Source: Desulfovibrio sp. (lineage in GTDB: Bacteria; Desulfobacterota; Desulfovibrionia; Desulfovibrionales; Desulfovibrionaceae). Taken from it: a stretch of DNA of 38,769 nucleotides. The notes under the pieces were generated by a model. The model was given only the letters and a program-made list of their open reading frames with translations, made no database searches and was not told where the DNA came from. Positions 6,776 to 31,478 of this stretch are shown here, piece after piece (position 1 is the stretch's first letter; each line of letters begins with the position of its first letter). The translations under genes and the position numbers were made by a program. Location: positions 1 through 38,769 of the forward strand of contig JAISLI010000020.1 of the NCBI GenBank assembly GCA_031291035.1, in the 5' to 3' direction.

Positions 6776-7665
6776 TGCCCGAAAACGCCATGAAAGACCT
6801 GCTCGGAGAGCGGGCGGCGATGGTGGAGCAAACCCTTGCGTCCTGCCTTGACGGTCTTTCGGTCCCCCCGCGTCTCGGACAGGCCATGCTGTACAGTCTG
6901 CTGGCGGGGGGCAAGCGGCTGCGTCCGGTCTTGTGCCTGACCTGCGCCTCTCTGTGCGGGGAGACGCTGGAGACGGCCCTGCCTTTTGCCTGCGCCATTG
7001 AAATGATACACACCTATTCACTGGTGCACGACGATCTTCCGGCCATGGACAACGATGACCTGAGGCGGGGCAGGCCGTCAAACCATAAAATTTTTGGTGA
7101 AGCGACGGCCATTCTGGCGGGAGACGCCCTGCTGACCGACGCTTTTGCCCTCGCGTGCCGCGCCGACGTCCGGGCGGACAGGCTCATCAGGGCCGTATCG
7201 ACCCTCGCCCTGGCGGCCGGATCTTCAGGCATGGCGGGCGGGCAGCAATGGGATATGCTCTATACGGGCGGTCCGGCCGTCGCGCTGGAGGAACTGCGGC
7301 GGATGCACGCCATGAAAACCGGCGCGCTGATACGGGCCTCCTGCGTTTGCGGCGCGATCCTGGCCGGAGCCGATGAGGCGGACGTGAAGGCCGCGGGCGT
7401 TTTCGGCGCCGCTCTGGGCATGGCCTTTCAGATTACCGACGACATCCTCGATCTCTCGGCCGATACCGCCAGTCTGGGCAAGCCGGCGGGAAGCGACGCG
7501 GACAGGGGAAAAAACACCTATCCATCCCTGCTGGGCATGGAGAGAAGCCGTGAACTCGCCTGTGAGCAGATTGTCGCGGCCCGGGCCGCTTTGAGGGATT
7601 TCTCCGGAAGGGAGGCCGAATTTTTGTCCGCCCTGGCTTCTTATGTCATTCATCGGGCGGCCTGA
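6772..7665 (+). CDS. ispA: Polyprenyl (farnesyl/geranylgeranyl) diphosphate synthase
   Basis: Short-chain trans-isoprenyl diphosphate synthase that extends DMAPP/IPP to a C15 or similar product. 297 residues. Both aspartate-rich motifs are present: DDLPAMDNDDLRRGRP, and FQITDDILD near residue 225. The substrate-binding GGKRLRPVL and the HAMKTGALI segment are also present. GGAGAG is eight bases before the ATG; a second ATG directly follows and could also be used. It sits between xseB (4-base overlap) and dxs (adjacent), so precursor supply (Dxs, IspG) and chain elongation are co-expressed. Product chain length cannot be read with certainty. Confidence 0.93.
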   Translation: MMPENAMKDLLGERAAMVEQTLASCLDGLSVPPRLGQAMLYSLLAGGKRLRPVLCLTCASLCGETLETALPFACAIEMIHTYSLVHDDLPAMDNDDLRRGRPSNHKIFGEATAILAGDALLTDAFALACRADVRADRLIRAVSTLALAAGSSGMAGGQQWDMLYTGGPAVALEELRRMHAMKTGALIRASCVCGAILAGADEADVKAAGVFGAALGMAFQITDDILDLSADTASLGKPAGSDADRGKNTYPSLLGMERSRELACEQIVAARAALRDFSGREAEFLSALASYVIHRAA

Positions 7666-9582
7666 GTGATGCGGACGGAGTTTCCGCTTCTGGGGAGTAT
7701 CCACGCGCCCTCGCAACTGGCCGGGTTTTCCGGTTCACAGTTGCTCCAGCTGGCGGATGAGGTCAGACAACGCATTGTGGAGGTTGTTTCGCGCAATGGC
7801 GGGCATCTGGCCCCTTCACTGGGAACCGTGGAGCTTACGCTTGCCTTGCTGGCGACATTTGACCTGGACAAGGACAAGCTGATCTGGGATGTCGGCCATC
7901 AGTCCTACGCTTTCAAACTGCTCACCGGACGCGCGGACAGGTTTCACACCTTGCGCACTCTCGGCGGTCTTTCCGGGTTTCCGAGGATATCGGAAAGTCC
8001 CTATGACCATTTTGGCGTGGGGCATTCCTCAACTTCCATATCAGCCGCCCTGGGCATGGCCCTGGCGCGGGATCTGGCCGGGCTCCGCCATCACGTCATC
8101 GCCGTTATCGGCGACGGGGCGCTGACGGCGGGCGAGGCCTTTGAAGGGCTCAATCTGGCCGGGCACATGGGCAAACGGCTTATTGTGGTGCTCAACGACA
8201 ATGAAATGTCCATTTCATCCAACGTGGGCGCGCTTTCGCGTTTCCTGAGCAGCGCGCTTTCGCGGCGCTGGGTACGGCAGGCGCGCAAGGATGTGCTCGA
8301 ATTTTTGCGGGCCGTGCCGCGCATCGGGCAAAAACTGGCGCTCTATGCCATGCGGGGCGAGCTGAGCTTCAAGTCCTTCTTCACGCCCGGCATGTTGTTC
8401 GAAGCGTTCCGTTTTGCCTATATCGGTCCTGTGGACGGCCATAACACAGGGGAACTGAAACACCATCTGCGCATGGCGGCCTCTGTGGAGGACGGGCCGG
8501 TGCTTCTGCATGTGCGCACGCGGAAAGGAAAGGGATACGCCCCCGCCGAGGCCAACCCGACACATTATCACGGCGTCGGCCTGTTCACGCCGGAGACGGG
8601 ACTGCCTGTTTCCGGCACGTCGGGCGTTCCAACCTTCACGGATGTTTTCGGAAAGACCCTCCTGCGGCTGGCGGAACAGGACGAAAGAATCATCGCCGTC
8701 ACCGCCGCCATGCCTGAAGGCACAGGGACGGATCTCTTCAAGCAACGATTTCCCGAACGTTTTGTGGATACCGGGATTTGTGAGCAGCATGCCGTAACCT
8801 TCGCGGCCGGTCTGGCGAGCCGGGGATATCGTCCTGTTGTGGCCATTTATTCCACATTTTTGCAGCGCGCCTACGATCAGATAGTGCATGACGTCTGCCT
8901 GCAAAACCTGCCCGTCACCTTTTGCCTTGACCGCGCCGGTCTGGTGGGAGAAGACGGGGCCACGCATCACGGAGCTTTCGACATGGCCTATTTGCGGCAT
9001 ATCCCCAATATGCGCATCCTTGCCCCGCGCAATGAGGATATGCTCCGCCATTGCCTGGCGACGGCGCTTGCCTCGGACGCGCCCTGCGCTGTCCGTTATC
9101 CGCGCGGAAGCGGACACGGCGTGCCGTTGAACGGGGCGGCGCGCATATTGCCTTCGGGCGCCGGAGAGATACTGCTGGACGGAAGCGGCGTCGCCGTCAT
9201 TGCCGTGGGCAACCGGGCGCATCCCGCTCTTGATGCCGCGTTTTTTGTGGAGAGGGAGTCGGGATTCCGGCCGCTGGTTTTTGATCCCGTCTGGCTCAAG
9301 CCCCTGCCGGAACGGGAATTGACGGATATGGCAAGCCGTTTCGACAAATTGCTGATAGTCGAGGAAGGCGTGCTGGCCGGCGGTTTTTCTTCCTCCGTTC
9401 TGGAATTTTTGAATGACCGGGGCTTGCTGAAACGGCTCAGCGTAAAGCGGATCGGCCTGCCGGACAGTTTTGTGGAACACGGCACCCAGCCGGAATTGCG
9501 TGAAATGTTCGGTCTGGACGGCGGGAGTATTGCCGGAGCGATTGCGGCACTGGCGAAAAAGCGGGATCTTGCCGAAGCATGA
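7666..9582 (+). CDS. dxs: 1-deoxy-D-xylulose-5-phosphate synthase
   Basis: First enzyme of the MEP pathway: condenses pyruvate with glyceraldehyde 3-phosphate using thiamine diphosphate. 638 residues, normal length. Seen: DVGHQSYAFKLLTGR, the ThDP motif (GDGALTAGEAFEGLN to LNDNEMSIS), the central pyrimidine-binding domain (ICEQHAVTFAAGLA, DRAGLVGEDGATHHG), and a C-terminal transketolase domain. A GTG (7666) and an ATG (7669) are adjacent just after the ispA stop; either could be the start and neither has a strong ribosome binding site, so coupling to ispA is likely. Last clear gene of the ispG operon. Confidence 0.95.
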   Translation: MMRTEFPLLGSIHAPSQLAGFSGSQLLQLADEVRQRIVEVVSRNGGHLAPSLGTVELTLALLATFDLDKDKLIWDVGHQSYAFKLLTGRADRFHTLRTLGGLSGFPRISESPYDHFGVGHSSTSISAALGMALARDLAGLRHHVIAVIGDGALTAGEAFEGLNLAGHMGKRLIVVLNDNEMSISSNVGALSRFLSSALSRRWVRQARKDVLEFLRAVPRIGQKLALYAMRGELSFKSFFTPGMLFEAFRFAYIGPVDGHNTGELKHHLRMAASVEDGPVLLHVRTRKGKGYAPAEANPTHYHGVGLFTPETGLPVSGTSGVPTFTDVFGKTLLRLAEQDERIIAVTAAMPEGTGTDLFKQRFPERFVDTGICEQHAVTFAAGLASRGYRPVVAIYSTFLQRAYDQIVHDVCLQNLPVTFCLDRAGLVGEDGATHHGAFDMAYLRHIPNMRILAPRNEDMLRHCLATALASDAPCAVRYPRGSGHGVPLNGAARILPSGAGEILLDGSGVAVIAVGNRAHPALDAAFFVERESGFRPLVFDPVWLKPLPERELTDMASRFDKLLIVEEGVLAGGFSSSVLEFLNDRGLLKRLSVKRIGLPDSFVEHGTQPELREMFGLDGGSIAGAIAALAKKRDLAEA

Positions 9583-10235: not shown

Positions 10236-11030
10236 TTACAGCAAAAAACTGTTCACCAGCGAACCCACGAGCAGGTTCCACCCGTCCACCATGACGAAAA
10301 GCAGAAGTTTGAACGGCATGGAGACCATCATCGGCGGCAGCATCATCATGCCCATGGCCAGCAGCACGCTGGAAATAACCATGTCCAGCACCAGAAACGG
10401 GATGTAAATGAGAAAGCCTATGCTGAAGGCCGTCTTGAGTTCACTTATCACATAGGCGGCGGCCAGCATCACGGTGGGAACTTCTTCCTTGCTTCCGGGG
10501 GCTTCCATCCGGCTTATTGAATAGAAAAGAGACAGGTCTTTCTCGCGCGTGTGCTTGAACATAAAGGTCCGCATGGGGGATTGCGCCCTGTCAAGGGCGT
10601 CCCTGTAGTCTATTTGCTCCTTCAGGTATGGTTGAAGGGCGTCATCGTTAATCTTCTTGCCCACGGGAAACATGATTACCACCGTCATAAAAATGGCAAG
10701 GCTGGCCAGAATTTGTGTCGGCGGCAGTTGCTGTATTCCCATGGCTTGCCGCAAGAAGCTGAAAACAATAATGATCCGCGTAAAACTTGTAACCGTCAGC
10801 ATTATGGCCGGCGCCACGGAAAGCACAGTGAGCAGAAAGAGAATTTCCAGCAGCACGGAAACCTTGTCCGGAGAAGACGCGCCGCCGGTCAGAGTGAGCT
10901 GCAGGGCGGGAAGGGAGAGATCCTGCGCCGCAAAAGCGTCAGTCGTCAGCAGAAGACAGGCCGCGATCACCGGGCCCGCCGTTTTTAACCTGTTCCATGA
11001 TGTCTTTGAAGTCTGCTCCATGCGGTTCAT
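10236..11030 (-). CDS. fliP: Flagellar export gate protein FliP
   Basis: Core export-gate membrane protein, 264 residues. It has a cleavable N-terminal signal (to about DAFAA, residue 35), as is usual for FliP, then TSFTRIIIVFSFLRQAMG, a large periplasmic loop (DALQPYLKEQIDY to SELKTAFSIGF), and C-terminal helices with PFLVLDMVISSVLLAMGMMM and LLLFVMVDGW. The ATG at 11030 has AGGAG ten bases upstream but makes the gene overlap fliO by 92 bases. A later start would remove the signal peptide, so the overlap is probably real. Confidence 0.95.
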   Translation of the reverse strand: MNRMEQTSKTSWNRLKTAGPVIAACLLLTTDAFAAQDLSLPALQLTLTGGASSPDKVSVLLEILFLLTVLSVAPAIMLTVTSFTRIIIVFSFLRQAMGIQQLPPTQILASLAIFMTVVIMFPVGKKINDDALQPYLKEQIDYRDALDRAQSPMRTFMFKHTREKDLSLFYSISRMEAPGSKEEVPTVMLAAAYVISELKTAFSIGFLIYIPFLVLDMVISSVLLAMGMMMLPPMMVSMPFKLLLFVMVDGWNLLVGSLVNSFLL

Positions 11031-11343
11031 GGCACGCTTTCTCCTCTGTCAAAAAGGTGATCTGGCGGTCTGTGACCCCCAGCAGCAACCTTCTATTCAA
11101 AAAACGTACCACCATAAGCCCCTTGCGCGGTCCAAGCGGCATTTGGGCTTCCATAACCAGCGCGTCGCGCGGCAAGGCCCCCGGACGCGGCAGAAAATTG
11201 AACCGCCCGTAACGGCGCATGAGCCACACAACCCCCCAGAGCAGGGCCAGGATTAAAAAAAGAACGCCTACGGCTTGAATATAGCCCGCCAGAGAAAAGG
11301 AGGCCGCATCCTGCGCGGCTGCCGTAAAAACAAGCCTATCCAA
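10939..11343 (-). CDS. fliO: Flagellar biosynthesis protein FliO
   Basis: A 134-residue membrane-anchored FliO, which stabilises FliP during assembly of the export gate. One membrane helix (about residues 18-42, GYIQAVGVLFLILALLWGVV) is followed by a small cytoplasmic domain with the FliO pattern (ALVMEAQMPLGPRKGLMVV, then NRRLLLGVT). Starts 8 bases inside the end of fliN and ends 92 bases inside fliP. Confidence 0.88.
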   Translation of the reverse strand: MDRLVFTAAAQDAASFSLAGYIQAVGVLFLILALLWGVVWLMRRYGRFNFLPRPGALPRDALVMEAQMPLGPRKGLMVVRFLNRRLLLGVTDRQITFLTEEKACHEPHGADFKDIMEQVKNGGPGDRGLSSADD

Positions 11344-11872
11344 GTTGTTTCACCCTTTCTATGGGGCTGATGATATCCGTCAGCCTCACGCCGAATTTTT
11401 CATTGATGACAACCGCCTCTCCCCGCGCCACAAGCTTTCCGTTGACGTAAACCTCCAACGGTTCGCCCGCGAGCTTGTTCAGTTCAACAACCGACCCTTG
11501 GCCAAGCTGCAAAAGCTCGTTGATGAGCAGGCGTGTGCGGCCAAGCTCGGCCGATACCTCCAGGGGGATATCCAGAATAAAATCCAGCTCCCGCTTGAGG
11601 CTGTTGTCCTTCGGCTGCCGGGCCATTTCCGTCATGTCCTTGAAATGGGCATCCTGCGCCGGAGCGCTGAATGAAGGTGACGCCCCGCCGCCGGCCTCCG
11701 CGGATTTTTCCTTCTCATCGGCGGCCAGGGCCTCGGCCCATTGCGCGGCCAGGGCCTCATCGTCCGCGGCGCTTCCGCCGGCCGCCTGTTCCTCCGGCGC
11801 CCCGCCGGCCTCGTCTTCCTCAAGCTGGGCCGCCCATTCGGCGGCCATCGCGTCCTGATCTTCCTGTGACAT
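11336..11872 (-). CDS. fliN: Flagellar motor switch protein FliN
   Basis: C-ring switch component, about 178 residues. The C-terminal ~85 residues are a clear SpoA domain (LDFILDIPLEVSAELGRT, LLQLGQGSVVELNKLAGEP, LVARGEAVVINEKFGVR, LTDII). The N-terminal 90 residues are acidic, Ala-rich and low in complexity, as in other long FliN proteins. I prefer the ATG at 11872 (MSQEDQ), which has GAGGTG just upstream; another ATG four codons earlier is possible. fliM is not in this window. Confidence 0.93.
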   Translation of the reverse strand: MSQEDQDAMAAEWAAQLEEDEAGGAPEEQAAGGSAADDEALAAQWAEALAADEKEKSAEAGGGASPSFSAPAQDAHFKDMTEMARQPKDNSLKRELDFILDIPLEVSAELGRTRLLINELLQLGQGSVVELNKLAGEPLEVYVNGKLVARGEAVVINEKFGVRLTDIISPIERVKQLG

Positions 11873-11932
11873 GCCGCACCTCATGCATGCTTTTTCGCGT
11901 CACTGCCGCATGGACAGCACAAAAAGTATACG

Positions 11933-20153: not shown

Positions 20154-21530
20154 ATGATGTATGCAAGCGCGTTGACGGACTCTCACCGGGTGTTTCTCGA
20201 AGACCTCTTCGGGAAGGACGGCCTGAGTTTTGAACCGGCGGTACTGCGCGTCTATTCCTCTGACGCCAGCAATGAAAGGGGGAAGATATTCGCCGTCGTG
20301 CGTCCCGCAGACACCGGACAGGTGCAGAAATTCATGCGCTGGGCCGATGCGGAGCGCGTGGTCGTGCATCCGCGCGGTCGCGGCACCAGCCTTGCCGGCG
20401 GTTGTGTCCCCACCGTTCCCGGCATTGTCGTCTCCACGCTCGGCATGGACAAACTGATTGACATCTCTTCCACCGATTTTGTGGCAGAGGTCGAACCCGG
20501 CCTCTGCACGGCGACCTTCCAGGCCGAGGCAGAGAAACGCGGCCTCATGTTCCCGCCCGACCCGGCCAGCGGCAAGGCCACAAGCCTTGGCGGCAACGTC
20601 TGCACCTGCGCCGGAGGGCTGCGGGCCGTCAAATACGGGGTGACCCGCGATTATGTGCTGGGGTGCGAGATTGTCCTGCCCGGCGGCCAATTGATGAAAT
20701 TCGGCGGCCGTACGCAAAAAGACGTGGTCGGTCTTGATCTGACCCGCTTTGTGGTCGGTTCCGAAGGCACGCTCGGCATCGTCACCAGGCTCATACTCAA
20801 ACTCATCCCCAAACCTGAAGCCAGCGCTTCCGTGCTGGTCGGCTATCGTTCGCTGGATGACGCCCTTTCTTCCATGACCAAGGTTTTTGCCGCCGGCATT
20901 CTGCCCGCGGCCGCGGAATTTATCGGTGAAACCTGCATGGACATTTTGACCAGGACCGGCGAATGCCCCTGGCCTGGTGAAGTGAAGGCCATGATGCTGT
21001 TCCAGATCGACGGCGGCAGGGAAACCATCGGCCTTGAGAACGCGCGTTTGTCCAGACAGCTTGACGACGCGCTCTGGAAGATGGAAGGCGTGGACAAAGA
21101 GGAGGAAGACAGGCTCTGGTCCTTCCGCCGCCGTATTTCCGCCGCCTCTTATGTGCTCGGTCCGGACCGCATGGGGGGCGACATGGCCGTTCCCAGGGGA
21201 AAGATTTTGCCGGCTGTGCGTCGTTTTGAAGAGATCGCCGCCGCCAACGGCAAACGGCTTGTCGCCTTCGGACACGCCGGTGACGGCAATATCCACGCCA
21301 ATCTGCACTATGACGCATCGGATCCGGACGATGCCGCGCGCACCGCCAAAACCCACCACAAGCTGGACAAAGCCGTGCTTGAGTTCGGCGGCAGCATCTC
21401 CGGCGAGCACGGCGGCGGTTCGCTCAAGGACGTGGGGCGGCAACTTGGCGCCGGGGAACATGAACTCATGCTCCGTATCCGGAAGCTGTTTGACCCCAAT
21501 CTGATTCTGAATCCGAAAAAGGGGTATTGA
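20154..21530 (+). CDS. FAD-linked 2-hydroxyacid dehydrogenase (GlcD / D-lactate dehydrogenase type)
   Basis: A 458-residue flavoprotein of the FAD_binding_4 / FAD-oxidase_C family. The FAD-binding part shows VHPRGRGTSLAGGCVPT, PPDPASGKATSLGGNVCTCA and VVGSEGTLGIVT. The C-terminal part has FGHAGDGNIHANLHYD and GEHGGGSLK. It oxidises a 2-hydroxyacid, most likely D-lactate or glycolate. The start is the ATG six bases after GGAGGAG; the frame is open above but crosses the sucD terminator. The partner Fe-S gene follows with overlap. Substrate cannot be fixed from sequence. Confidence 0.9.
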   Translation: MMYASALTDSHRVFLEDLFGKDGLSFEPAVLRVYSSDASNERGKIFAVVRPADTGQVQKFMRWADAERVVVHPRGRGTSLAGGCVPTVPGIVVSTLGMDKLIDISSTDFVAEVEPGLCTATFQAEAEKRGLMFPPDPASGKATSLGGNVCTCAGGLRAVKYGVTRDYVLGCEIVLPGGQLMKFGGRTQKDVVGLDLTRFVVGSEGTLGIVTRLILKLIPKPEASASVLVGYRSLDDALSSMTKVFAAGILPAAAEFIGETCMDILTRTGECPWPGEVKAMMLFQIDGGRETIGLENARLSRQLDDALWKMEGVDKEEEDRLWSFRRRISAASYVLGPDRMGGDMAVPRGKILPAVRRFEEIAAANGKRLVAFGHAGDGNIHANLHYDASDPDDAARTAKTHHKLDKAVLEFGGSISGEHGGGSLKDVGRQLGAGEHELMLRIRKLFDPNLILNPKKGY

Positions 21531-21532
21531 CC

Positions 21533-22684
21533 GTGAAACGCGGATGTACGCAATGCGGCGAATGCCTGAATGTCTGTCCGGTGTACAGGCAGTTTACCCG
21601 CGAGGAGTATTCGCCCAAAGGCAAACGGCTTCTCATGGAGCCTCTCGCTCCGGAATTCGGCGGCGATGAAAGAGCGGCCGAGCTGAACTGGGAGAGCGTC
21701 CGCTCACTGGCGCGCCTGTGCGCCGGTTGTGACAGGTGCAGGAAAGCGTGCGCGCGCAAACTTTCAACAGCCGATCTGCTCGCCGACGTCCGCGCTACGC
21801 ATCCACACTGGACGCAACATTTCTGGCAGCTCTGGATCGCCCGCATGGGACCGCTGTGGCCTTCGCTCGGGCTTATGGCCACTCTTGTGCCGGACGGTTT
21901 GACTCCGAAACCCCTGAAGCCCCTGCATGACACGGCAAAAATCCTGGCGGACAGGGGCGAGGCCCGGCCGTGGGGACGCATCCGCAAAAATCCGGAATCG
22001 CGGACGGACGTCTCAAAACCGGTTCTGCTTTTTTCAGGCTGTACGGCCAACAATGTGAGAAAAAAATGGTCCTCCGGGGCGAATGATCTTCTGCTGGCCT
22101 GGGGATATGAGTTGTCGGATCCGGGAGGTTTTGTCTGTTGCGGCGGCACCATGCACCACGCCGGCCGTTATGGGGCGCAACGCGCCATGGAGGGACAAAA
22201 CGTCGAATACTGGCGCAAAAGCGGCAAGCCCCGCATCGCCGTTTTTTGCGCTTCCTGTTTTCACAGCCTGCATGGTTACGCCGGCGGGGTCCTGACGGGG
22301 AATGAGGCCGGGGAATGGCTTGCGGCCCTGACTCCCGTCAGCGTTCTGCTTGCCGGCGCGGAAGTCGAACATACAGAGGCGAAGCCGGCCGCATACGGCT
22401 ATCATCAACCCTGCCACTGGGGAGATAACGACAACGACATAAAATTTTTGCAGAGGCTTTTTCCCGGTCTGCACAAGGGGACAGGACTGTGCTGCGGCAT
22501 GGGCGGGATATTGCAAATGAGCAATCCCGGTCTTTCCCGCCGCATGGCGGAGTCAACCCTCGATGGCTTCCCCGGGGCCATCAGCCGAATCGTCACCGGT
22601 TGCAGCGGATGCGTCATGCAGTTGAACGCCGCGGCCGGCGGGGACATGCGCATTGAGCACTGGCTTGACCTTGTAAGTCTGTAA
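21533..22684 (+). CDS. Fe-S/CCG-domain electron-transfer partner (GlcF-like)
   Basis: About 383 residues. The N-terminus has two [4Fe-4S] motifs: CTQCGECLNVCPVY and CAGCDRCRKACARK. The rest carries two cysteine-rich CCG-type domains (LFSGCTANNVRKKW to FVCCGGTMHHAG; then YHQPCHWGD, GLCCGMGG and VTGCSGCVMQ), as in GlcF and heterodisulfide-reductase-type subunits. It takes electrons from the flavoprotein upstream toward quinones or other membrane carriers. I chose the GTG at 21533, eight bases after GGGG; an in-frame TTG at 21527 overlapping the upstream stop is the alternative. Confidence 0.88.
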   Translation: MKRGCTQCGECLNVCPVYRQFTREEYSPKGKRLLMEPLAPEFGGDERAAELNWESVRSLARLCAGCDRCRKACARKLSTADLLADVRATHPHWTQHFWQLWIARMGPLWPSLGLMATLVPDGLTPKPLKPLHDTAKILADRGEARPWGRIRKNPESRTDVSKPVLLFSGCTANNVRKKWSSGANDLLLAWGYELSDPGGFVCCGGTMHHAGRYGAQRAMEGQNVEYWRKSGKPRIAVFCASCFHSLHGYAGGVLTGNEAGEWLAALTPVSVLLAGAEVEHTEAKPAAYGYHQPCHWGDNDNDIKFLQRLFPGLHKGTGLCCGMGGILQMSNPGLSRRMAESTLDGFPGAISRIVTGCSGCVMQLNAAAGGDMRIEHWLDLVSL

Positions 22685-22704: not shown

Positions 22705-22722
22705 CCCGCCCGGCGGGCTTTT
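22705..22722 (+). terminator. Short terminator after the GlcF-like gene
   Basis: CCCGC and GCGGG form a five-base stem around CCG, followed by CTTTT, about 20 bases after the stop. It is small but GC-only and well placed, separating the dehydrogenase genes from the encapsulin operon. Confidence 0.55.
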
Positions 22723-22763: not shown

Positions 22764-22791
22764 TTCACAACGCCCTCCCTCCTGTTATTAT
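22764..22791 (+). promoter_or_regulatory. Probable promoter of the encapsulin operon
   Basis: TTCACA and TATTAT are separated by 16 bases (each five of six consensus positions). Transcription would start near 22798, leaving a ~105-base leader before the shell-gene ATG. Confidence 0.5.
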
Positions 22792-22903: not shown

Positions 22904-23851
22904 ATGTCCGAACAGAAAAAACACCTGAACGCCTTGGGACGGGATGCCGCCTATCAGCTCGCGAATATAACCAAAACACCCCCGCAGTTCGCTTCCGTCA
23001 CACCGCGCTGGCTGACCAGAATTTTGGAATTCAAAGCCCTTGACGCCGGTATTTACCGGGTGAACAAGGTGGTGGAGGGTGAAACTCCTCTGGACGTTCT
23101 GTGCAGTCAGGGACAAAAACACACGGAAATTCCCCGCGGGTATATTGAATATCAAAGCGGGCCGCGCGAGTATGAGCTCAATTCCATCTCAACCATAATT
23201 AATGTCGATACCAAAATATCGGATGCTTACAGTTCTCCTTATGATCAAACCGACGAACAGATCGCCCTGGCCGTGGAAAGCCTCAGGGAGCGTCAGGAAA
23301 GTCAGATCATCAACAGCGATGATTACGGGCTTCTGAAGAACGCGGTTCCCTCTCAACGCATACAGCCGCGTTACGGAGCGCCCATGCCGGACGATCTGGA
23401 CGAACTGCTGACAAAGGTATGGAAGGAGCCGTCTTTCTTTCTGGCCCATCCCAGGGCTGTGGCGGCTTTCGCGCGGGAATGCACGAGGCGCGGAGTACCG
23501 CCTGCAACGGTGAACGTATATGGCGGAATATTTATCGCCTGGCGCGGCGTTCCTCTTATTCCCACCGACAAGCTGTTTGTGGACGGACTGAAAAATCCGA
23601 AGGGCAAAGCCGGAAAAACCAATATATTGCTGGTGCGCACCGGTGAGCAGAAACGCGGCGTCATCGGCCTGTATCAAGGTTCTCCGCCGGGAGAACATTC
23701 GCGGGGGCTTTCCGTGCGCCTGCGCGGCATAGACGATAACGGCTTGGCATCATACCTGCTTTCCCTTTACTGTTCCGCCGCCATATTGGCGGATGACGCG
23801 ATTGCCGTACTTGAGGATGTCGAAGTCGGAGATTATTATGACTACAGATAA
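22904..23851 (+). CDS. Family 2A encapsulin shell protein (SrpI-like, HK97 fold)
   Basis: A 315-residue shell protein resembling SrpI of cyanobacteria and the mycobacterial major membrane protein I family. Such proteins self-assemble into HK97-fold nanocompartments. Recognisable stretches: AYQLANITKTPPQFASVTPR at the N-arm, GIYRVNKVVEG, SGPREYELNSISTIINV, SSPYDQTDEQI, ESLRERQESQIIN, DDLDELLTKVWKEPSFFLAHP, CTRRGVPPATVNVYGG, and RGVPLIPTDK, ending in EDVEVGDYYDYR. Length fits family 2A; there is no inserted cyclic-nucleotide-binding domain as in family 2B. It is easily mistaken for SufB/SufD from context, but the sequence is unlike those. GGGAGGAG precedes the ATG. The next gene overlaps by 14 bases and encodes the expected cargo. 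Confidence 0.9.
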   Translation: MSEQKKHLNALGRDAAYQLANITKTPPQFASVTPRWLTRILEFKALDAGIYRVNKVVEGETPLDVLCSQGQKHTEIPRGYIEYQSGPREYELNSISTIINVDTKISDAYSSPYDQTDEQIALAVESLRERQESQIINSDDYGLLKNAVPSQRIQPRYGAPMPDDLDELLTKVWKEPSFFLAHPRAVAAFARECTRRGVPPATVNVYGGIFIAWRGVPLIPTDKLFVDGLKNPKGKAGKTNILLVRTGEQKRGVIGLYQGSPPGEHSRGLSVRLRGIDDNGLASYLLSLYCSAAILADDAIAVLEDVEVGDYYDYR

Positions 23852-25271
23852 CAACTTCCGATTTGACCCCGGAGCTTACGGCCTGCCGGATGAAAACGGG
23901 CTGCGGGACATCCTGTGGAAATACGCCTCCGGCTTCCGGCAAGACGGTTCCGCCGTCTATTCTCCGTTTGTCGGCCCCGCCGGCCCTGAAGCGACGGTCG
24001 CGGCCCATCCGGCATTGAAGAAAGCTCCGGCGGGCGCGGGCAGTCGGTATCTGGGCGATACTGTTTCCCTGCAAAAAATCAGGAATGATTTTCCCATACT
24101 TTCCGAGAAAATACACGGACACCCTCTGATATGGCTGGATAACGCGGCCACGACGCAACGTCCGCGTCAGGTCATAGAACGTGTGGCATACTATTATGCC
24201 CACGAAAATTCCAACGTACACAGGGGGGCGCATACTTTGGCGGCGCGGTCCACAGACGCCCATGAATCCGCACGTGAAAAGACAGCCCGTTTTATCGGCG
24301 CGGAGGGCAAGGACAACATTGTGTTCGTGCGCGGCGCCACGGAGGGAATCAATCTGGTGGCGCAAGCCTACGCAAGGCAGCTGCTGCGTCCGGGCGACGA
24401 AATCGTACTGACGCTGCTGGAGCACCACGCCAATATAGTGCCCTGGCAGCTCGTCGCACGGGAAACGGGCGCGTTGTTGCGCGTGGCGACCGTGGACGCC
24501 GGCGGGCAGATTGTTCTTCCGGAATATACGCGTCTGTTCAACAGCAGAACCCGCTTCGCTTCCGTGACGCATGTGTCAAACGCCCTGGGCACGGTGACGC
24601 CGGTGGAGGAAATGATTGCCGTGGCCCACGGTTTCGGCGTGCCTGTGTGCGTGGACGGGGCGCAATCCGTATCGCATCTGCCTGTAAACGTCACAGATCT
24701 GGATGCGGATTTTTTTGTCTTTTCAGGACACAAAATTTTCGGCCCCACCGGCATAGGCGTCCTGTACGGAAAAAAAGAGCTGCTGGAAAGGGCCGGACCG
24801 TACCAGGGCGGCGGCAACATGATTGCCGATGTGACGTTTGAGCGAACGCTGTATCAGAAAGCACCCGCCAAATTTGAGGCCGGAACGGGAAATATTGCCG
24901 GCGCCGTGGGGCTTGGCGCCGCTATCGACTATGTTTCCGCCATAGGCATGGAAAACATAGCCCGCTACGAACAGGAACTTTTCCGGTACGCAACGCGGGA
25001 ACTGGCGCGTGTTCCGGGATTGATCCGGATCGGCTCGTCCGAGCGGCAGGTCAGTGTGCTGTCTTTTGTGCTGGAAGGGCACAGTCTGGAGGAAACAGGC
25101 CGGCGTCTCAATGAGGTCGGCATAGCCGTACGCGCGGGACACCACTGCGCCCAGCCCATTCTGCGGCATTTCGGGCGCAAGGGCACCATCCGTCCTTCCC
25201 TGGCTTTTTACAATACGTCTGACGAGGTGGATCTGCTGGTAAAAACGCTGTTTGAAATTGTGCGCCGGTAG
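23838..25271 (+). CDS. Cysteine desulfurase, probable encapsulin cargo
   Basis: A 477-residue type II (SufS/CsdA-like) cysteine desulfurase that releases sulfur from cysteine as a persulfide. The fold starts at about residue 77 (LQKIRNDFPILSEKIHG). The PLP lysine is Lys299 in FVFSGHKIFGPTG and the persulfide cysteine is Cys437 in RAGHHCAQP. Residues 1-76 form an extension absent from housekeeping SufS: a short aromatic/acidic part with one helix-like segment (GLRDILWKYASGF), then a Gly/Ala/Pro-rich linker. In family 2A systems such extensions load the enzyme into the shell. GGAG lies seven bases before the ATG, inside the shell gene. No sufE, sufU or other suf gene is nearby. Confidence 0.92.
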   Translation: MTTDNNFRFDPGAYGLPDENGLRDILWKYASGFRQDGSAVYSPFVGPAGPEATVAAHPALKKAPAGAGSRYLGDTVSLQKIRNDFPILSEKIHGHPLIWLDNAATTQRPRQVIERVAYYYAHENSNVHRGAHTLAARSTDAHESAREKTARFIGAEGKDNIVFVRGATEGINLVAQAYARQLLRPGDEIVLTLLEHHANIVPWQLVARETGALLRVATVDAGGQIVLPEYTRLFNSRTRFASVTHVSNALGTVTPVEEMIAVAHGFGVPVCVDGAQSVSHLPVNVTDLDADFFVFSGHKIFGPTGIGVLYGKKELLERAGPYQGGGNMIADVTFERTLYQKAPAKFEAGTGNIAGAVGLGAAIDYVSAIGMENIARYEQELFRYATRELARVPGLIRIGSSERQVSVLSFVLEGHSLEETGRRLNEVGIAVRAGHHCAQPILRHFGRKGTIRPSLAFYNTSDEVDLLVKTLFEIVRR

Positions 25272-25281
25272 CGGTTCACCC

Positions 25282-26442
25282 CTAATACCGGGGGAGGCTG
25301 TTGTCCACATCCCTAGCCCAGGCGTTGGTGCCCCCCAGCAGGTTGAGCATTTTGCCCGCATAGCCGGCTTCATGCAGAGCGCGGATGGCGAGGGCGCTGC
25401 GGCGGCCCACCTTGCAGATGAAAACCGCTTCCGTATGCGGGTCGAACTCGTCCATGCGCCGCACCACCTGACCGAAGGGCACGGGTCTGGCGCCCTCAAA
25501 AATAAACACATTCCGCTCATGCTGCTCGCGGACGTCAACTAGCTGCAGGGGCTCCTCCCTGTCCAGACGGGCTTTCAACTCCAGGGGCGTAATGCCGTCT
25601 ATGTCCTCATCCGGCTGCGTCAGGCCACAGAACCGGTCGTAGTCAATCAGTTCGTCAATGACGGGATTTTCTCCGCAAACGGGACACGCCGGGTCTTTTT
25701 CCAGTTTAACTTCACGAAACTTCATGCGCCAGGCGTCAAAAAGCAGAAGGCGGCCGATGAGCCCCCGGCCTTCGCCCAGGATCAGCTTTATGACTTCGCA
25801 GGCCTGTATTGTGCCCACTATGCCCGGCAAAACTCCCACAACCCCTCCCTCGGCGCAGGACGGCACCAGACCCGGCGGAGGAGGAGCCGGATAAAGACAG
25901 CGGTAGCATGGCCCGTCTGTCGCATGAAAAACCGTGGCCTGGCCTTCAAACTGGAAGATGGAGCCGTAAACATTGGGAATGTCCAGCAGCACGCAGGCGT
26001 CGTTCACGAGATAGCGGGTCTGGTAGTTGTCCGTGCCGTCGGCCACCACGTCATAGTCGTGCAGTATGTCCATGGCGTTGCCGGCGGTGAGCGCGACATT
26101 GTAGGTAACGACGTTTACAAGGGGATTCAGCCCCTTGATCCTGTCTTTGGCGGATTCCGTTTTCGGCCTGTCGATATCGCGGGTGCTGTGGATAACCTGA
26201 CGCTGGAGATTTGAGGACTCCACAAAGTCATTATCCACCACGCCTATGGTGCCGACTCCGGCCGCGGCCAGATACAGCGCCAGCGGAGCGCCCAGCCCTC
26301 CGGCGCCCACAATGAGCACTCTGGCGGCTTTCAGGCGTTTCTGGCCTTCCGGCCCCACCTCCGGCAACAGCAAATGCCGGCTGTACCGCGAGATTTCGTC
26401 GTTGTCCAGCTCAGTCAGACGCCTGTCAGGAATGATGCTCAT
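25282..26442 (-). CDS. MoeZ/MoeB-like E1 activating enzyme with rhodanese domain
   Basis: A 386-residue two-domain protein. Residues 1-265 are a ThiF/MoeB adenylyltransferase with the ATP-binding VGAGGLGAP (about 45-53), DNDFVESSNLQRQ, and zinc ligands Cys179/Cys182 and Cys253/Cys256. Residues 280-386 are a rhodanese domain with active-site Cys343 in CKVGRRS. By analogy with MoeZ it would adenylate the C-terminal glycine of the sulfur carrier encoded just upstream and then thiocarboxylate it with persulfide sulfur. Its ATG overlaps the carrier stop (ATGA). The gene ends 10 bases from the cysteine desulfurase stop, on the opposite strand. Confidence 0.9.
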   Translation of the reverse strand: MSIIPDRRLTELDNDEISRYSRHLLLPEVGPEGQKRLKAARVLIVGAGGLGAPLALYLAAAGVGTIGVVDNDFVESSNLQRQVIHSTRDIDRPKTESAKDRIKGLNPLVNVVTYNVALTAGNAMDILHDYDVVADGTDNYQTRYLVNDACVLLDIPNVYGSIFQFEGQATVFHATDGPCYRCLYPAPPPPGLVPSCAEGGVVGVLPGIVGTIQACEVIKLILGEGRGLIGRLLLFDAWRMKFREVKLEKDPACPVCGENPVIDELIDYDRFCGLTQPDEDIDGITPLELKARLDREEPLQLVDVREQHERNVFIFEGARPVPFGQVVRRMDEFDPHTEAVFICKVGRRSALAIRALHEAGYAGKMLNLLGGTNAWARDVDNSLPRY

Positions 26443-26768
26443 GGCCGGAGCCCCCAGTCATCCGGGCAGGCCCCGCAATCGGGAGCCGGGGACGTTCCGC
26501 CGGCAATCGCGGGCACGATCATCACCGTTTCCCCATCCTGGACGGGCGTCTCAAGCCCGGACGCGTCCTTCACGTTTTTCTCGCCGACGTAAATGTTGAT
26601 GAACGAGCGCAGACTGCCGTCGTCATCGTAAAGATGCCGCCGGATATCCGGGTAGAATCCGGCAAAGGCGGCAATCGCCTCGCCCGCGGTGCGCCCCTCA
26701 ATTTCAACTTCCGCCTTTCTGTCGGTAAAGGCGCGCAAAGCCGTAGGAATCAAAATCGTAACCGCCAT
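26439..26768 (-). CDS. CysO/ThiS-type sulfur carrier with a C-terminal tail
   Basis: A 109-residue ubiquitin-fold sulfur carrier resembling mycobacterial CysO (VTILIPTALRAFTD at the start, SFINIYVGEKNVKD, and VMIVPAIAGG). Active carriers end in Gly-Gly. Here Gly90-Gly91 are followed by 18 more residues (TSPAPDCGACPDDWGLRP) before the stop, including a CxxC. The tail is in frame and its stop overlaps the next start, so it is not an obvious sequencing error. It implies a pro-form that needs cleavage, probably by the adjacent JAMM protease. AAAGGAG is nine bases upstream of the ATG. Confidence 0.88.
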   Translation of the reverse strand: MAVTILIPTALRAFTDRKAEVEIEGRTAGEAIAAFAGFYPDIRRHLYDDDGSLRSFINIYVGEKNVKDASGLETPVQDGETVMIVPAIAGGTSPAPDCGACPDDWGLRP

Positions 26769-26809
26769 GATGCTGTACTCCTTTCAATAGCGCCGCTTTT
26801 GGCGTGGTG

Positions 26810-27238
26810 TTATGGCGCGCATTCCAATTCTTCCCGGTTGAACCGCGCGCGGTCGCCGGAAAGCTCCCAGGAGGAAATCTCCGCCGATGCGCCTTGTCGC
26901 ACGCTCAGAATGACGTAGGAATAAAAGGGCAGCGCCTGTTCCCGGTCGTATTCCGACGGCGTGGATGTGTGATCCGGATGCGAATGATAAAAGCCCAGCA
27001 CATCCAGGCCGCGAAGGCGCGCCTGCTTTTCCGCGCGCAGGAAATCGTCCGGGCCGATACAAAAACGGTGATGCCGTTCTTCCGCCAGACCGGCATTGGG
27101 CACGGGCATGATGTCCTCCACCCCGCGCCGCCCGTTTGCATCAATTTGTCCAAGCAGAATGCCGCAGCATTCATCCGGGTAACATTTTTCCCCTTCGGCG
27201 CGGATATGCCGTTCCACATCCCCGGGCACAAGAATCAT
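26810..27238 (-). CDS. JAMM/MPN+ zinc metalloprotease (Mec-like)
   Basis: About 142 residues. The full JAMM motif is present: Glu23 (CYPDECCGILLG), His85 and His87 (GFYHSHPDHTSTPSEYD), Ser95 and Asp98. In the mycobacterial Mec+/CysO/CysM system this protease releases cysteine from the carrier's C-terminus. In others it trims carrier pro-forms to expose Gly-Gly; both roles are possible here. I chose the ATG at 27238, which overlaps the cysteine synthase stop and has GGGAGG upstream, instead of the 17-codon-longer frame. Confidence 0.88.
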   Translation of the reverse strand: MILVPGDVERHIRAEGEKCYPDECCGILLGQIDANGRRGVEDIMPVPNAGLAEERHHRFCIGPDDFLRAEKQARLRGLDVLGFYHSHPDHTSTPSEYDREQALPFYSYVILSVRQGASAEISSWELSGDRARFNREELECAP

Positions 27239-28131
27239 GCCGTTGCCTCCCAAAAAGAATCGGACAGATAGCGCGTGCCGGTATCGCACAATATGGTGAC
27301 TATTTCAGAATGCTTCGGCGCCTTGCGGGCAAGTTTGAGGGCCGCCTGAACATTGGCGCCGGAACTGATGCCGACGAGGATGCCTTCCTCGCGGGCCAGC
27401 CTGCGCGTCATGGCGCACGCCTCCCCGGTGCTTACGGCAATAATGCCGTCAATCAGATTTTCATCCAGAATCCCCGGTCTGATCGTGGACGGCATATGCT
27501 TTGTGCCCTCAATGCCGTGGAGAGGGGAATCCGGCTGAACAGCCATGGCGCGGATCGCGCGGTCATGGGCCTTGAGCCGCCCGGCCACGCCGGTGAAAGT
27601 GCCTGAGGTTCCCATGCAGGCGACAAAATGCGTCACCCGGCTCTGCCGCAGTATTTCCGCGCCGGTGCCGTCGTAATGGGCCAACGCGTTGGCCTTGTTG
27701 TTGTATTGATCCGGGTAGAAATACAATTCGGGCTCGGCCCCGGCCGCCGCCCTGGCGGCGAGATAGGCCCCGTCGGAGCTTTCCAGGGGGTCCGTGTACA
27801 CGATATTCGCGCCGTAAGCGGCGAGCATGCGTTTGCGCTCGGCATTGGCGTTGGCGGGCATATACAATGTCACGGCGTATCCGAGGGCCGCCCCCATCAT
27901 GGCATAGGCGACGCCCGTGTTGCCGCTGGTGGCGTCAAGTATGATTTTTCCCTTTTTCAGAAGGCCTTTTTGCATGCCGTCCACAAGCATGGCTTTGGCC
28001 GCCCTGTCTTTGACGGAACCGCTGGGATTGCAAAATTCCGCCTTGGCCCGGAGTACGATTCCCGGCACTTCGGCCGCGATTTTGTCCAGCCTGAGCAAAG
28101 GCGTGTCGCCCACCACATCCAGTATGCGCAT
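27235..28131 (-). CDS. Cysteine synthase (CysK/CysM family)
   Basis: About 298 residues of a PLP fold-type II enzyme. The PLP lysine is Lys41 in NPSGSVKDR, the substrate loop is TSGNTG (68-73), GTSGTFTG is the phosphate loop, and CDTGTRYLS lies near the C-terminus. In this company it is probably the CysM-like enzyme that uses the thiocarboxylated carrier as sulfur donor rather than free sulfide; that is inference from context. The start is uncertain: ATG 28131 gives the normal family length but a weak ribosome site. ATG 28305 has GGAG eight bases upstream and would add 58 basic residues (see findings). First gene of the four-gene sulfur operon. Confidence 0.9.
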   Translation of the reverse strand: MRILDVVGDTPLLRLDKIAAEVPGIVLRAKAEFCNPSGSVKDRAAKAMLVDGMQKGLLKKGKIILDATSGNTGVAYAMMGAALGYAVTLYMPANANAERKRMLAAYGANIVYTDPLESSDGAYLAARAAAGAEPELYFYPDQYNNKANALAHYDGTGAEILRQSRVTHFVACMGTSGTFTGVAGRLKAHDRAIRAMAVQPDSPLHGIEGTKHMPSTIRPGILDENLIDGIIAVSTGEACAMTRRLAREEGILVGISSGANVQAALKLARKAPKHSEIVTILCDTGTRYLSDSFWEATA

Positions 28132-29073: not shown

Positions 29074-30288
29074 TCATTCGTTTTCCCGGTACGCGCCATC
29101 CGCCAACGCGCTGACGACTGCGTAGGTTTTGATTCCCTCGCATCTGCCGGTGAATCCCATGCCTTCTTCCGTGCCGGCTTTGAGATTGACGCATTCAGCG
29201 GGCAGATTCAGGAGCCGCGCCACATTGTTGCGGATTTCTTCGCGCCAGGGGGCTATGCGGGGAATTTGCGCCACAATGGTCATATCGGCATGGGTGGGGC
29301 GTATTCCGGCATTGCGCGTCATTTTGAGAACTTCGCTGAGCAGGACGGCGGAGGAGATGTTTTCAAAACGCGCGTCGCTGTCCGGAAAGTGCTGTCCGAT
29401 GTCGCCAAGGCCGGCGCAGCCCAGAAGGGCGTCCATGAGGGCGTGCAGAAGCGCGTCCCCGTCGGAATGGGCCAGCACTTCCGGGCCGCCGGGAATGCGC
29501 ACGCCGCCGAGGACAAAGGGGCGTTCTCCGCCGTAGCGGTGCGCGTCATGCCCCATGCCGATGCAGGGGCGCGGTGCCGGCGTATCGGCAAGCAGGGCAA
29601 GATCATCAGGATTGGTGATTTTCACGTTTTTCGGCTCTCCGGCGATAACGCGCACGCTGTGCCCCGCGTCTTCCATCAGGGCGGCGTCGTCCGTGGCGGC
29701 GAGGCAGCGTTCGCGGGCGCGTTCGTGAGCCCGGGCCAGAAGATCGGCGGTAAAGCCCTGGGGGGTTTGCGCGGCGATCAGGTTCTCGCGGGGCAGGGTG
29801 GCGGAAACACGGTTGTTTTCAATCCGTTTTAAGGTGTCTGTTACCGGCAGCGCCGGGATGACGGCATCTTCGTGGACGAGCGCCGCACAGACGCGGCGTA
29901 TGAGGCCGGGGCTGACGAAGGGACGCGCCGCGTCGTGAACAAGCGTCCGGCGCGTGTGCGGCGGCAACGCGGCAAGACCACGGCGCACGGAATCCTGACG
30001 CCGCCCGCCGCCCGTCGTTATGACCCAGGGCAGGCCCGGATCGCTTGTTCTGCGCAGTTCGCGCAGACGCTTCTCCTCTTCGGGAAAAAATTCCTCCGGA
30101 AAGACAAAAACCAAGCCCCCCACAACGGCACTACGGCTCATGGCCAGAACCGAATGCCAATAAAGGGGCATGCCGCGCCAGAGCAGCGATTGCTTGCGCG
30201 CGCCGCCAATGGAGGCGGCAAGGCGGCTGCCGCTGCCGGCGGCCATGATCAGCGCCCAAGGTTTCTCGTTATGGAAAGGCATTGACAT
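29074..30288 (-). CDS. ispDF: Bifunctional IspD/IspF (MEP pathway)
   Basis: A 404-residue fusion of two MEP enzymes. Residues 1-235 are IspD, MEP cytidylyltransferase (ALIMAAGSGSRLAAS, GGRRQDSVRRGL, VHDAARPFVS, NVKITNPDDLAL). Residues 240-404 are IspF, MEcPP synthase (GMGHDAHRYGG, LAHSDGDALLHALMDALLG, FPDSDARF, KAGTEEGMGFTG). The intervening step (IspE) is not encoded here. ATG 30288 or ATG 30282 starts translation only about 8-14 bases after the mature 3' end of RNase P RNA, with no clear ribosome binding site. Confidence 0.95.
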   Translation of the reverse strand: MSMPFHNEKPWALIMAAGSGSRLAASIGGARKQSLLWRGMPLYWHSVLAMSRSAVVGGLVFVFPEEFFPEEEKRLRELRRTSDPGLPWVITTGGGRRQDSVRRGLAALPPHTRRTLVHDAARPFVSPGLIRRVCAALVHEDAVIPALPVTDTLKRIENNRVSATLPRENLIAAQTPQGFTADLLARAHERARERCLAATDDAALMEDAGHSVRVIAGEPKNVKITNPDDLALLADTPAPRPCIGMGHDAHRYGGERPFVLGGVRIPGGPEVLAHSDGDALLHALMDALLGCAGLGDIGQHFPDSDARFENISSAVLLSEVLKMTRNAGIRPTHADMTIVAQIPRIAPWREEIRNNVARLLNLPAECVNLKAGTEEGMGFTGRCEGIKTYAVVSALADGAYRENE

Positions 30289-30295
30289 CTTTTCA

Positions 30296-30659
30296 GCGGG
30301 AGCCGGACTGTAAGCCGGGTTCTGTCATGCGCCGCGCGCATGTAACCGTCATTCCTCTAGGAGCGCGGTTACCCGCGCCCTCAAGCGACCTACCCGGAAG
30401 GCATGCGGCCGGGCCGGCCGCCTTCCCTATTTGGTCTTGCTCCAGACGGGGCATGCCTAGCAGGCTGCGTCGCCGCAGCCTCTGGTGGGCTCTTGCCCCA
30501 CCGTTGCACCCTTACCGCGACGCGCGCGGCGGTTTGTTTTCTGTGGCGCTTTCCGAGGGTCACCCCTCCTGGGCGTTACCCAGCGTCTTGCCCTGTGGAG
30601 CCCGGACTTTCCTCTCCGGATCGGCATGATTCCGCAGCGACGGTTCGTCCGGCTCCCGC
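30296..30659 (-). ncRNA. rnpB: RNase P RNA (type A)
   Basis: The RNA of RNase P, which makes tRNA 5' ends. Its 5' and 3' ends pair (GCGGGAGCCGGAC with GTCCGGCTCCCGC). Conserved parts on the minus strand include GAGGAAAGTCCGGGCTCC near the 5' end, GGTAAGGGTGCAACGGTG, AGAGCCCACCAGAGG, GACCAAATAGGG and the ACAGAACCCGGCTTACAG end. Boundaries are approximate by a few bases. It lies between the zinc-ribbon gene and ispDF with almost no spacer at its 3' end. No clean promoter was found in the 45 bases before it. Confidence 0.95.
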
Positions 30660-30704
30660 ATTTGCAAAGTCATGGCAATTTCCGGAATATTTGGCGGATT
30701 CCTG

Positions 30705-31478
30705 CTATTCCGCGGCGGTTTCCGGTTTTTCCGTCTTTGCTTCCCGGGACGGGCTGAAATGCCCGCACCAGAAAATCAGCCGCTGACAGTTGGGGCAGCC
30801 CAAAATTTGCCGCCCTCTCTGAAGATCAATAAAAATCTGCGGAGGCACTGCTATATTGCAGCCGGAGCAGACGCCGTCCTTTGCCGCCACAATGACGGGG
30901 TGTTCCAGCCGGGAGCGGATAAATTCATAGCGCGTGAAAACCCCCGGCGGAATGCCCGTGCTGACCTGCAGACGTTTTTTCTCCAGTTTCGCCAGCTCGC
31001 CTCTGGCCGCGGCCAGTTTTTCCTCCATGCCGTCCTTTTTGACTTCCAGCTCGGCCTGAATGGCGGTATGACTGATGTCCATATCCGCCAGCGCAAGCTG
31101 CTGGGCCGCCAATTCCTCGGCAAGCGTGCTTTTTTCCTCCTCGCGGGAATGGTTCATTTTCTCCATGTTGTCCATTTCGCGCAACATGGCCTGGTATTCC
31201 CGCGTGTTGGCGACCTGCATGAGCTTGTTTCTACTTTTTTTGATTCTCGTTGCGTCTTCTTCAATTTCCTGCTCTATGCGTTTTTGTTGCTCCGCAAGAT
31301 GGGAAATTTTTTCCAGAACGTGCTGCCGCTGGGCTTCGCACTTTGCAAAGCGCTGTTCCAGATCCATAATCTCACGGGGGGTTTTCTCCACATCCTGGCG
31401 GACGGCAAAAATGGCGTCATCCACCTTTTGCAGTTCAACAAGTTGTTTTATTTGTTCAAAATAAATAGAATTTCCCAT
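30705..31478 (-). CDS. Coiled-coil protein with C4 zinc ribbon
   Basis: A 257-residue protein. Residues about 10-180 are a long coiled coil rich in Glu/Lys/Gln. A C-terminal zinc-ribbon follows, with CSGCN (about 204) and CPNCQR (about 228) as the four cysteines, in the context GVCSGCNIAVPPQ. This matches the DUF/zf-RING_7 family related to Helicobacter HP0958, linked there to flagellar and RNA functions; the role here is unknown. GAGGAGG is four bases before the ATG. Co-directional with the NIF3 gene and rnpB. Confidence 0.88.
   Translation of the reverse strand: MGNSIYFEQIKQLVELQKVDDAIFAVRQDVEKTPREIMDLEQRFAKCEAQRQHVLEKISHLAEQQKRIEQEIEEDATRIKKSRNKLMQVANTREYQAMLREMDNMEKMNHSREEEKSTLAEELAAQQLALADMDISHTAIQAELEVKKDGMEEKLAAARGELAKLEKKRLQVSTGIPPGVFTRYEFIRSRLEHPVIVAAKDGVCSGCNIAVPPQIFIDLQRGRQILGCPNCQRLIFWCGHFSPSREAKTEKPETAAE

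Follow-up and report, generated by a model that had tools for sequence, protein, structure and literature searches.

The stretch of DNA analysed here (hereafter the window; 38,769 nucleotides, the forward strand of contig JAISLI010000020.1 in the Desulfovibrio sp. assembly GCA_031291035.1) carries at 22904-25271 a Family 2A encapsulin shell gene together with the gene of its cysteine desulfurase (CD), an assignment that we regard as practically certain, and next to them, on the opposite strand at 25282-28131, the four protein types of a CysO-type cysteine-synthesis pathway. On balance, we lean towards reading both gene sets as one sulfur deposit-and-withdrawal module, in which the encapsulated CD would deposit sulfur and the CysO-type route would withdraw it. 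Taken alone, shell and CD add one more ordinary member to Family 2A; the new part is the carrier-coupled operon.

The shell gene and its cysteine desulfurase

A preliminary description of the window had proposed an SrpI-like shell gene overlapping a SufS-like gene by 14 bases, and both open reading frames (ORFs) and the overlap were confirmed to the base. In the hidden Markov model search of 22904-23851 the shell protein matched Pfam PF19307 (SrpI-like) with 303.4 bits, and the curated NCBIfam model NF041162 (encap_f2a) placed it in Family 2A (469.7 bits, cut-off 380); the NCBIfam model of Family 2B stayed below its cut-off of 400 with 366.3 bits, and the cyclic-nucleotide-binding insert that marks Family 2B was absent, PF19307 being the sole Pfam domain in the 315 aa. 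The best sequence match in the PDB was SrpI (6x8m, E 6e-111). The HK97-like fold anticipated for the protein was likewise recovered in an AlphaFold2 (AF2) model predicted from an alignment of 67 relatives (A2), with a predicted local distance difference test score (pLDDT) of 82.6 and a predicted template modelling score (pTM) of 0.77; an earlier alignment (A1), whose 13 rows share 79-94% identity with the window sequence, had yielded a mean pLDDT of 32.4 and was set aside. Foldseek ranked 6x8m first (54% identity), followed by the Family 2A shells of A. baumannii and M. smegmatis, Family 2B shells and phage capsids including HK97. The A. baumannii Family 2A system is reportedly the subject of a paper on elemental sulfur storage.

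According to PMC8049743, Tyr273 and Phe262 of SrpI lie near the cargo density. The first aligns with Tyr284 of the window shell, a position occupied by Tyr in 67/67 shells, and the second with Leu273, where 52 of the 67 shells have Phe and 12 have Leu. The ratio of nonsynonymous to synonymous substitution rates (dN/dS) of the shell against genome G088, the closest relative found, was 0.07. A search of the host's own genome returned a single shell match, and the best named shell relative (94%) belongs to a metagenome-assembled genome (MAG) labelled Desulfovibrio sp.

The ORF of the CD opens at 23793, and the start that fits its relatives is the ATG at 23838 (MTTDNN...); M[TSIN][TISM] occurs within the first 12 residues in 67/69 extracted cargo N-termini. 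Because the relatives start at an MTT/MTI methionine, we placed the start at this ATG, and the overlap with the shell gene is therefore exactly 14 bases. The protein matched PF00266 with 453.8 bits and TIGR01979 (sufS) with 527.1 bits (cut-off 475.1), and retains both the lysine that binds pyridoxal phosphate (PLP; SGHK) and the catalytic cysteine (RAGHHC). Given the scores against PF19307 and PF00266 and the passing of NF041162, the identities of shell and CD are not due to chance. The proposal that the CD serves as cargo stood in part: its SufS-type identity held, but it missed the curated Family 2A cargo model NF041166 (754.2 bits, cut-off 800), to which the match covers only profile positions 223-621, beginning at CD residue 74. 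Judged from these matches, the CD is a cargo-like variant with a short N-terminus, outside the curated cargo members.

According to PMC8049743, CyD of Synechococcus elongatus is loaded by its N-terminal domain, the encapsulated enzyme is approximately sevenfold more active, and the targeting domain has 225 aa, versus about 73 aa in the window CD; PMC12407261 describes CDs as involved in sulfur storage. In 69 query-like loci (window included), compared after leaving out loci whose CD match began far from the domain start, the extracted N-terminal region spans 51 to 314 aa, with 123 aa as the median. Compared with the published cargo motifs LARLANEFFS and AASPYYFLDG, the CD matches the first loosely, and the second was not found, a different motif, YSPFV, being present. 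A loose pattern of the first motif occurs in 50/69 query-like and 10/15 distant loci and also in the window, while a stricter one (30/69 and 6/15) does not match the window. For the second motif, the pattern YxPx(V/L/A) with restricted letters was present in 47/69 query-like loci including the window and in 0/15 distant loci, and the pattern of the published motif in 1/69 and 6/15, not in the window. These N-terminal patterns were chosen after the sequences had been read, so that the shuffles control for composition only. Against G088, dN/dS amounts to 0.19 in the CD domain and 0.66 in the N-terminal region.

The carrier module in the window and among shell relatives

The four genes downstream of the CD had not been connected to the encapsulin in the preliminary description. 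All of them encode proteins with Pfam domains above gathering scores, namely an E1-like adenylyltransferase with a rhodanese domain (PF00899, 277.8 bits; PF00581, 47.3 bits), a sulfur carrier (PF02597, 38.9 bits), a JAMM peptidase (PF14464, 82.3 bits; searched on 26813-27223) and a cysteine synthase (PF00291, 218.3 bits; searched on 27238-28128). The E1-rhodanese keeps CKVGRR in its rhodanese domain as well as the CxxC pairs, and HxHx10D is present in the JAMM peptidase. TIGR01136 and TIGR01138 matched the cysteine synthase with 316.9 and 312.4 bits, both below cut-off, and NCBIfam does not label the four-gene set as a CysO pathway.

The two best PDB chains for the carrier are 4n6e_B and 3dwg_C, which we take to be CysO-type proteins. 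The match to 3dwg_C reaches the last residue of that chain, whereas the window carrier has an extra tail after its Gly-Gly. None of 31 standalone carriers ends at Gly-Gly; tails of 1-49 residues follow in 31/31. As the thiocarboxylate forms on the C-terminal glycine (PMC3227635), trimming of the carrier should be needed; the JAMM enzyme would be the obvious candidate for it, and the carrier would be expected to work like CysO only after trimming.

Features in and around the shell-desulfurase pair and the carrier module (positions in the window)
Feature	Position	Strand	Remarks
Terminator-like hairpin after upstream dehydrogenase genes	22705..22717	+	Weak; region holds 11 versus 7.3 expected
Promoter-like site 5' of shell gene	22764..22791	+	10/12 matches; weak, chance level (region holds 3 sites versus 2.5 expected)
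Family 2A encapsulin shell gene	22904..23851	+	315 aa ORF; NF041162, PF19307, HK97 fold by AF2 and Foldseek
SufS-type CD, presumed cargo	23838..25271	+	477 aa; PF00266, TIGR01979; 14-base overlap with shell gene
Short CD N-terminal region, presumed shell-targeting	23838..24056	+	73 aa; cargo model starts at residue 74
Degenerate first N-terminal motif	23877..23936	+	YGLPDENGLRDILWKYASGF; loose pattern matched, stricter pattern not
Second N-terminal motif	23958..23972	+	YSPFV; pattern matched in window
E1-like adenylyltransferase with C-terminal rhodanese domain (MoeZ-type)	25282..26442	-	386 aa; ends 10 bases from CD stop
CysO/MoaD-like sulfur carrier	26439..26768	-	109 aa; PF02597; ATGA overlap with E1 gene
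Tail beyond carrier Gly-Gly	26442..26495	-	18 residues; length equal in loci L120 and L121
JAMM/M67 peptidase (Mec-like)	26810..27238	-	Start inferred at ATG 27238, overlapping cysteine synthase stop (ATGA)
Cysteine synthase, CysK/CysM family	27235..28131	-	298 aa, from ATG 28131

In the reading that we favour, which draws on homologues, domain content and the missing free Gly-Gly, the CD would be loaded into the HK97 shell via its short N-terminal region and strip sulfur from cysteine, and the shell would hold it as sulfane or elemental sulfur. For withdrawal, the JAMM peptidase would trim the carrier to Gly-Gly and the E1 enzyme would activate it, after which the rhodanese domain may hand on sulfane sulfur to give the carrier thiocarboxylate. 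By analogy with the CysO pathway, a serine derivative would then receive the carrier sulfur through the cysteine synthase, and cysteine would be released by the JAMM peptidase.

The neighbourhoods of named shell relatives, counted in the best 80 of 522 listed, support a connection between both gene sets. Here the carrier-pathway genes often precede shell-CD in the same orientation. A CD gene was present in 79 of the 80 loci, an E1-rhodanese gene immediately upstream in 55, a carrier in 53, a JAMM gene in 48, a serine-acetyltransferase-like gene in 37, a CysM-like gene in 26 (counted without an identity floor and including matches of about 40%), and all four module genes in 22. Of the loci most similar to the query (L024-L088), 46 have upstream sequence of 3.5 kb or more; the E1-rhodanese gene directly precedes the shell in 38/46 and the complete module is found in 17/46. 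Moreover, carrier and E1 are fused in 33/80 loci, 30 of which also hold a JAMM gene, and in L041 (4339-5796) ThiS, ThiF and rhodanese domains follow each other in a single protein. The module genes are recurrent operon partners of this encapsulin type. Several relatives' titles name rumen, omasum, reticulum or abomasum.

Further sulfur genes were observed at some of these loci. A TusA-like gene lies near the shell in 14/80 loci, ThiS and TusA domains are encoded downstream of the CD in L071 and L066, second ThiF-like and JAMM genes follow the CD in rumen-type loci (L056, L066, L068, L071 and similar), and L077 has a PLP enzyme of Cys/Met metabolism near the CD.

Co-occurrence, inheritance and competing readings

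Within the Desulfovibrionaceae the shell scores above cut-off in 15/288 genomes and 3/44 genera (15/348 genomes and 3/59 genera at order level). Sixteen of the 288 genomes have a shell (one of them a remnant), 16 have a JAMM match of at least 50% identity (20 at E 0.001, before matches below that identity were dropped) and 14 have both; G131 and G132 carry the shell without JAMM, G086 and G129 JAMM without the shell. Shell and JAMM occupy the same 3 of 44 genera, and the Fisher P of their co-occurrence is 6e-20 by genome, which ignores kinship, and 8e-5 by genus. Both lie on one contig in 10 of the 14 genomes.

Among close relatives, G090 and G087 show the common module-shell-CD order. G088 (shell 94%) has the same dehydrogenase genes before shell-CD as the window, where an FAD-linked dehydrogenase (FAD, flavin adenine dinucleotide) and an iron-sulfur/CCG subunit precede the shell gene at 20154-22684; its carrier module lies on another contig. 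G090 carries two modules (L121 and L122): besides the one in common order with shell-CD, another sits on a short shell-less contig, its proteins being 86-93% identical to those of the window. In G049, of the same genus, only shell fragments are found (L126:7124-7465), beside open E1, carrier and cysteine synthase genes and a JAMM match that contains a stop.

A shell tree of 88 rows, built by a quick method and supported by the Shimodaira-Hasegawa-like approximate likelihood-ratio test (SH-aLRT) only, contains a clade of 74 rows (support 99) that covers 11 phylum labels, one of which, Myxococcota, comes from three records that bear the title Deltaproteobacteria bacterium. Over the whole tree, counting rows of named genomes, the phylum label changes at least 23 times, and the Desulfovibrionaceae rows form one group (support 85). 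Transfer of the shell between phyla would be the simplest reading of this tree. Aliarcobacter cibarius carries a carrier-type encapsulin region on a plasmid typed as mobilizable (L105), a possible transfer vehicle. In the N-terminal, tree and distance comparisons, the duplicate loci L006, L008 and L011 (equal to L029, L028 and L026) were left out. Shell and E1 distances correlate with r 0.47 over 52 loci, reached by 0/2000 permutations. Co-inheritance or joint transfer is supported for E1 and not for JAMM, since the E1 distances follow those of the shell and the JAMM distances do not: for shell and JAMM, r was -0.05 over 42 loci (1402/2000 permutations reach it).

Several other results likewise weigh against a joint deposit-and-withdrawal function. 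The distances of the cysteine synthase (r 0.24, 23 loci, 56/2000 permutations) and the carrier (r 0.24, 51 loci, 2/2000 permutations, but 0.06 between phyla) follow those of the shell weakly. Shell and JAMM are on separate contigs in 4/14 genomes (G088, G122, G123, G126), G132 has shell and E1 without a JAMM match, G086 has the module without a shell, and the adjacent E1 gene is absent in 8 of the 46 loci with long upstream sequence. By NCBIfam names, the E1 protein passes the MoeB-named model NF006444 (458.7 bits, cut-off 449) and fails the MoeZ model (455.7 of 647), and the best models for carrier and JAMM peptidase are SAMP1 and desampylase, both below cut-off. Parts of the reading are weakened because these names and the distance correlations speak against them. 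Furthermore, a cycle from cysteine to cysteine would need a reason, e.g., timing, and in the window shell-CD and the carrier module are convergent and do not form one operon. An in-place inversion of shell-CD would be expected to leave such a layout, and an assembly error may also account for it.

The strongest competing explanation, which we judge unlikely though still of some weight, is ordinary Family 2A storage as in S. elongatus, by shell and CD alone, with neighbours that are merely co-regulated sulfur genes. It fits the lack of a carrier module in S. elongatus and in other plasmid systems (Azospirillum brasilense, Variovorax), G122 and L029, which have shell and CD without a nearby module, the unsupported co-inheritance of the shell with JAMM and CysM, and the most distant loci L089-L103, where all four module genes occur in 2/15 and the set is lacking in the other 13, some contigs being short. 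It leaves unaccounted for the adjoining E1 gene across many phyla, the carrier-E1 fusion and the near-complete co-occurrence of shell and JAMM over the family genomes.

That E1, carrier and JAMM work outside cysteine synthesis, for example in making molybdopterin or in a SAMP/ubiquitin-like tagging of proteins, with shell or cargo as possible targets, is improbable: the MoeB, SAMP1 and desampylase matches would suit it, the latter two sub-threshold, but the cluster includes a cysteine synthase, the carrier's best PDB matches are presumably CysO-type chains, and the genome has a second E1-like gene. Still less probable is a decaying or empty shell in this lineage with the CD unloaded and free in the cytoplasm. 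The degenerate first motif, the short N-terminal region with its dN/dS of 0.66, the split gene order and the remnant in G049 would point in this direction, against which stand the low dN/dS of shell and CD domain, the open reading frames and the retained catalytic residues. Finally, a main role of the encapsulated CD in iron-sulfur assembly or in buffering sulfide or oxygen stress in the gut, to which its SufS type might point, is very improbable, as a NifS above its cut-off elsewhere in the genome is available for the iron-sulfur task and no Suf gene is among the annotated genes of the window (the genome was not searched for Suf genes).

Host genome, known systems and implications

The preliminary description had taken the organism for a probable sulfate reducer, and the same assembly indeed passes the curated models of sat (383.1 bits), aprA (1159 bits) and dsrA (637.8 bits), which were above cut-off in 5, 0 and 0 of 14 control genomes. 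The host is therefore a probable dissimilatory sulfate reducer, judged by these genes. Its contrast with aerobes and cyanobacteria, also drawn there, is fair only in part, because Family 2A has been reported from 12 to 13 phyla in published surveys. As a common trait of shell carriers, sulfate reduction was rejected: aprA was above cut-off in only 8/15 shell or remnant relatives (5/5 of the same genus, 3/10 of the others), several of these MAGs being incomplete.

NifS is the other CD identified in the genome; class-V matches on contig C50 are below threshold, one of them cut by the contig end. CysK is above cut-off elsewhere in the genome, which also encodes a serine acetyltransferase that scores 158.7 bits against the EpsC model (cut-off 150) and does not pass the cysE model. 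With CysK and EpsC elsewhere, the carrier module represents a second cysteine route. The remainder of the window includes isoprenoid genes at 6772-9582 and 29074-30288 (polyprenyl synthetase, Dxs, IspD-IspF fusion), flagellar FliP and FliN-like genes on the minus strand at 10236-11884, and short low-confidence ORFs on the plus strand at 30282-30786, between IspDF and the next gene.

Compared with known systems, the window shares with SrpI/CyD of S. elongatus (6x8m; PMC8049743) the shell fold and family, the CD gene directly downstream and cysteine-synthesis genes nearby; the plasmid order there is cysK-epsC-srpI-cyd-rhodanese, whereas the neighbours here are cysteine synthase, JAMM, carrier and E1-rhodanese. 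In other plasmid systems, cysE follows the CD (A. brasilense), or rhodanese and epsC precede the shell (Variovorax), and serine acetyltransferases and rhodaneses are enriched partners in Family 2A CD operons (PMC8346489). A related arrangement is that of the A. cibarius plasmid pACIB (NZ_CP043858.1), with cysteine synthase, M67 peptidase, MoaD/ThiS, rhodanese, shell (67.8% identity) and CD in one direction, although IS110 and IS5 elements interrupt the region and cysE and cysK come after the CD. The same four protein types constitute CysM-CysO-Mec-MoeZ of Mycobacterium tuberculosis (PMC3227635), where, unlike in the window, the module is not linked to an encapsulin. Operons of type 4c with ThiS/MoaD, E1-rhodanese, JAB and cysteine synthase, of the same content and uncharacterised there, were described by Iyer et al. 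2006 (PMC1779556), whose main text has no occurrence of SrpI or of major membrane protein and gives the operon without an encapsulin. A link between encapsulins and the carrier pathway was not found in the literature searched, whose coverage excluded most subscription papers as well as the supplementary neighbourhood tables of PMC8049743 and PMC8346489, which may hold these Pfams.

Beyond this genome, we tentatively propose, as plausible but short of probable, that one clade of Family 2A shells, having moved among phyla of anaerobes from animal guts, acts as a sulfur bank equipped with a withdrawal line. Along this line, a JAMM-matured ubiquitin-like carrier, often fused to E1-rhodanese, would pick up sulfane sulfur at the shell and deliver it in thiocarboxylate form to cysteine synthase. 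In these organisms, the sulfur source that CysO-type pathways lack would then be the encapsulated CD; CysO is sulfurated by MoeZR, for which a 2011 paper (PMC3227635) described the origin of the sulfur as unknown. Two questions converge here, namely the fate of the sulfur released by encapsulated CDs and the supply of sulfur to MoeZ during cysteine synthesis of the CysO type, and the recurrent gene order together with the carrier-E1-rhodanese fusion makes both approachable with defined parts. Moreover, the finding places a Family 2A shell in a probable sulfate reducer that also has CysK and EpsC, so that plain sulfur shortage would be a less likely reason for this organism to keep the shell.

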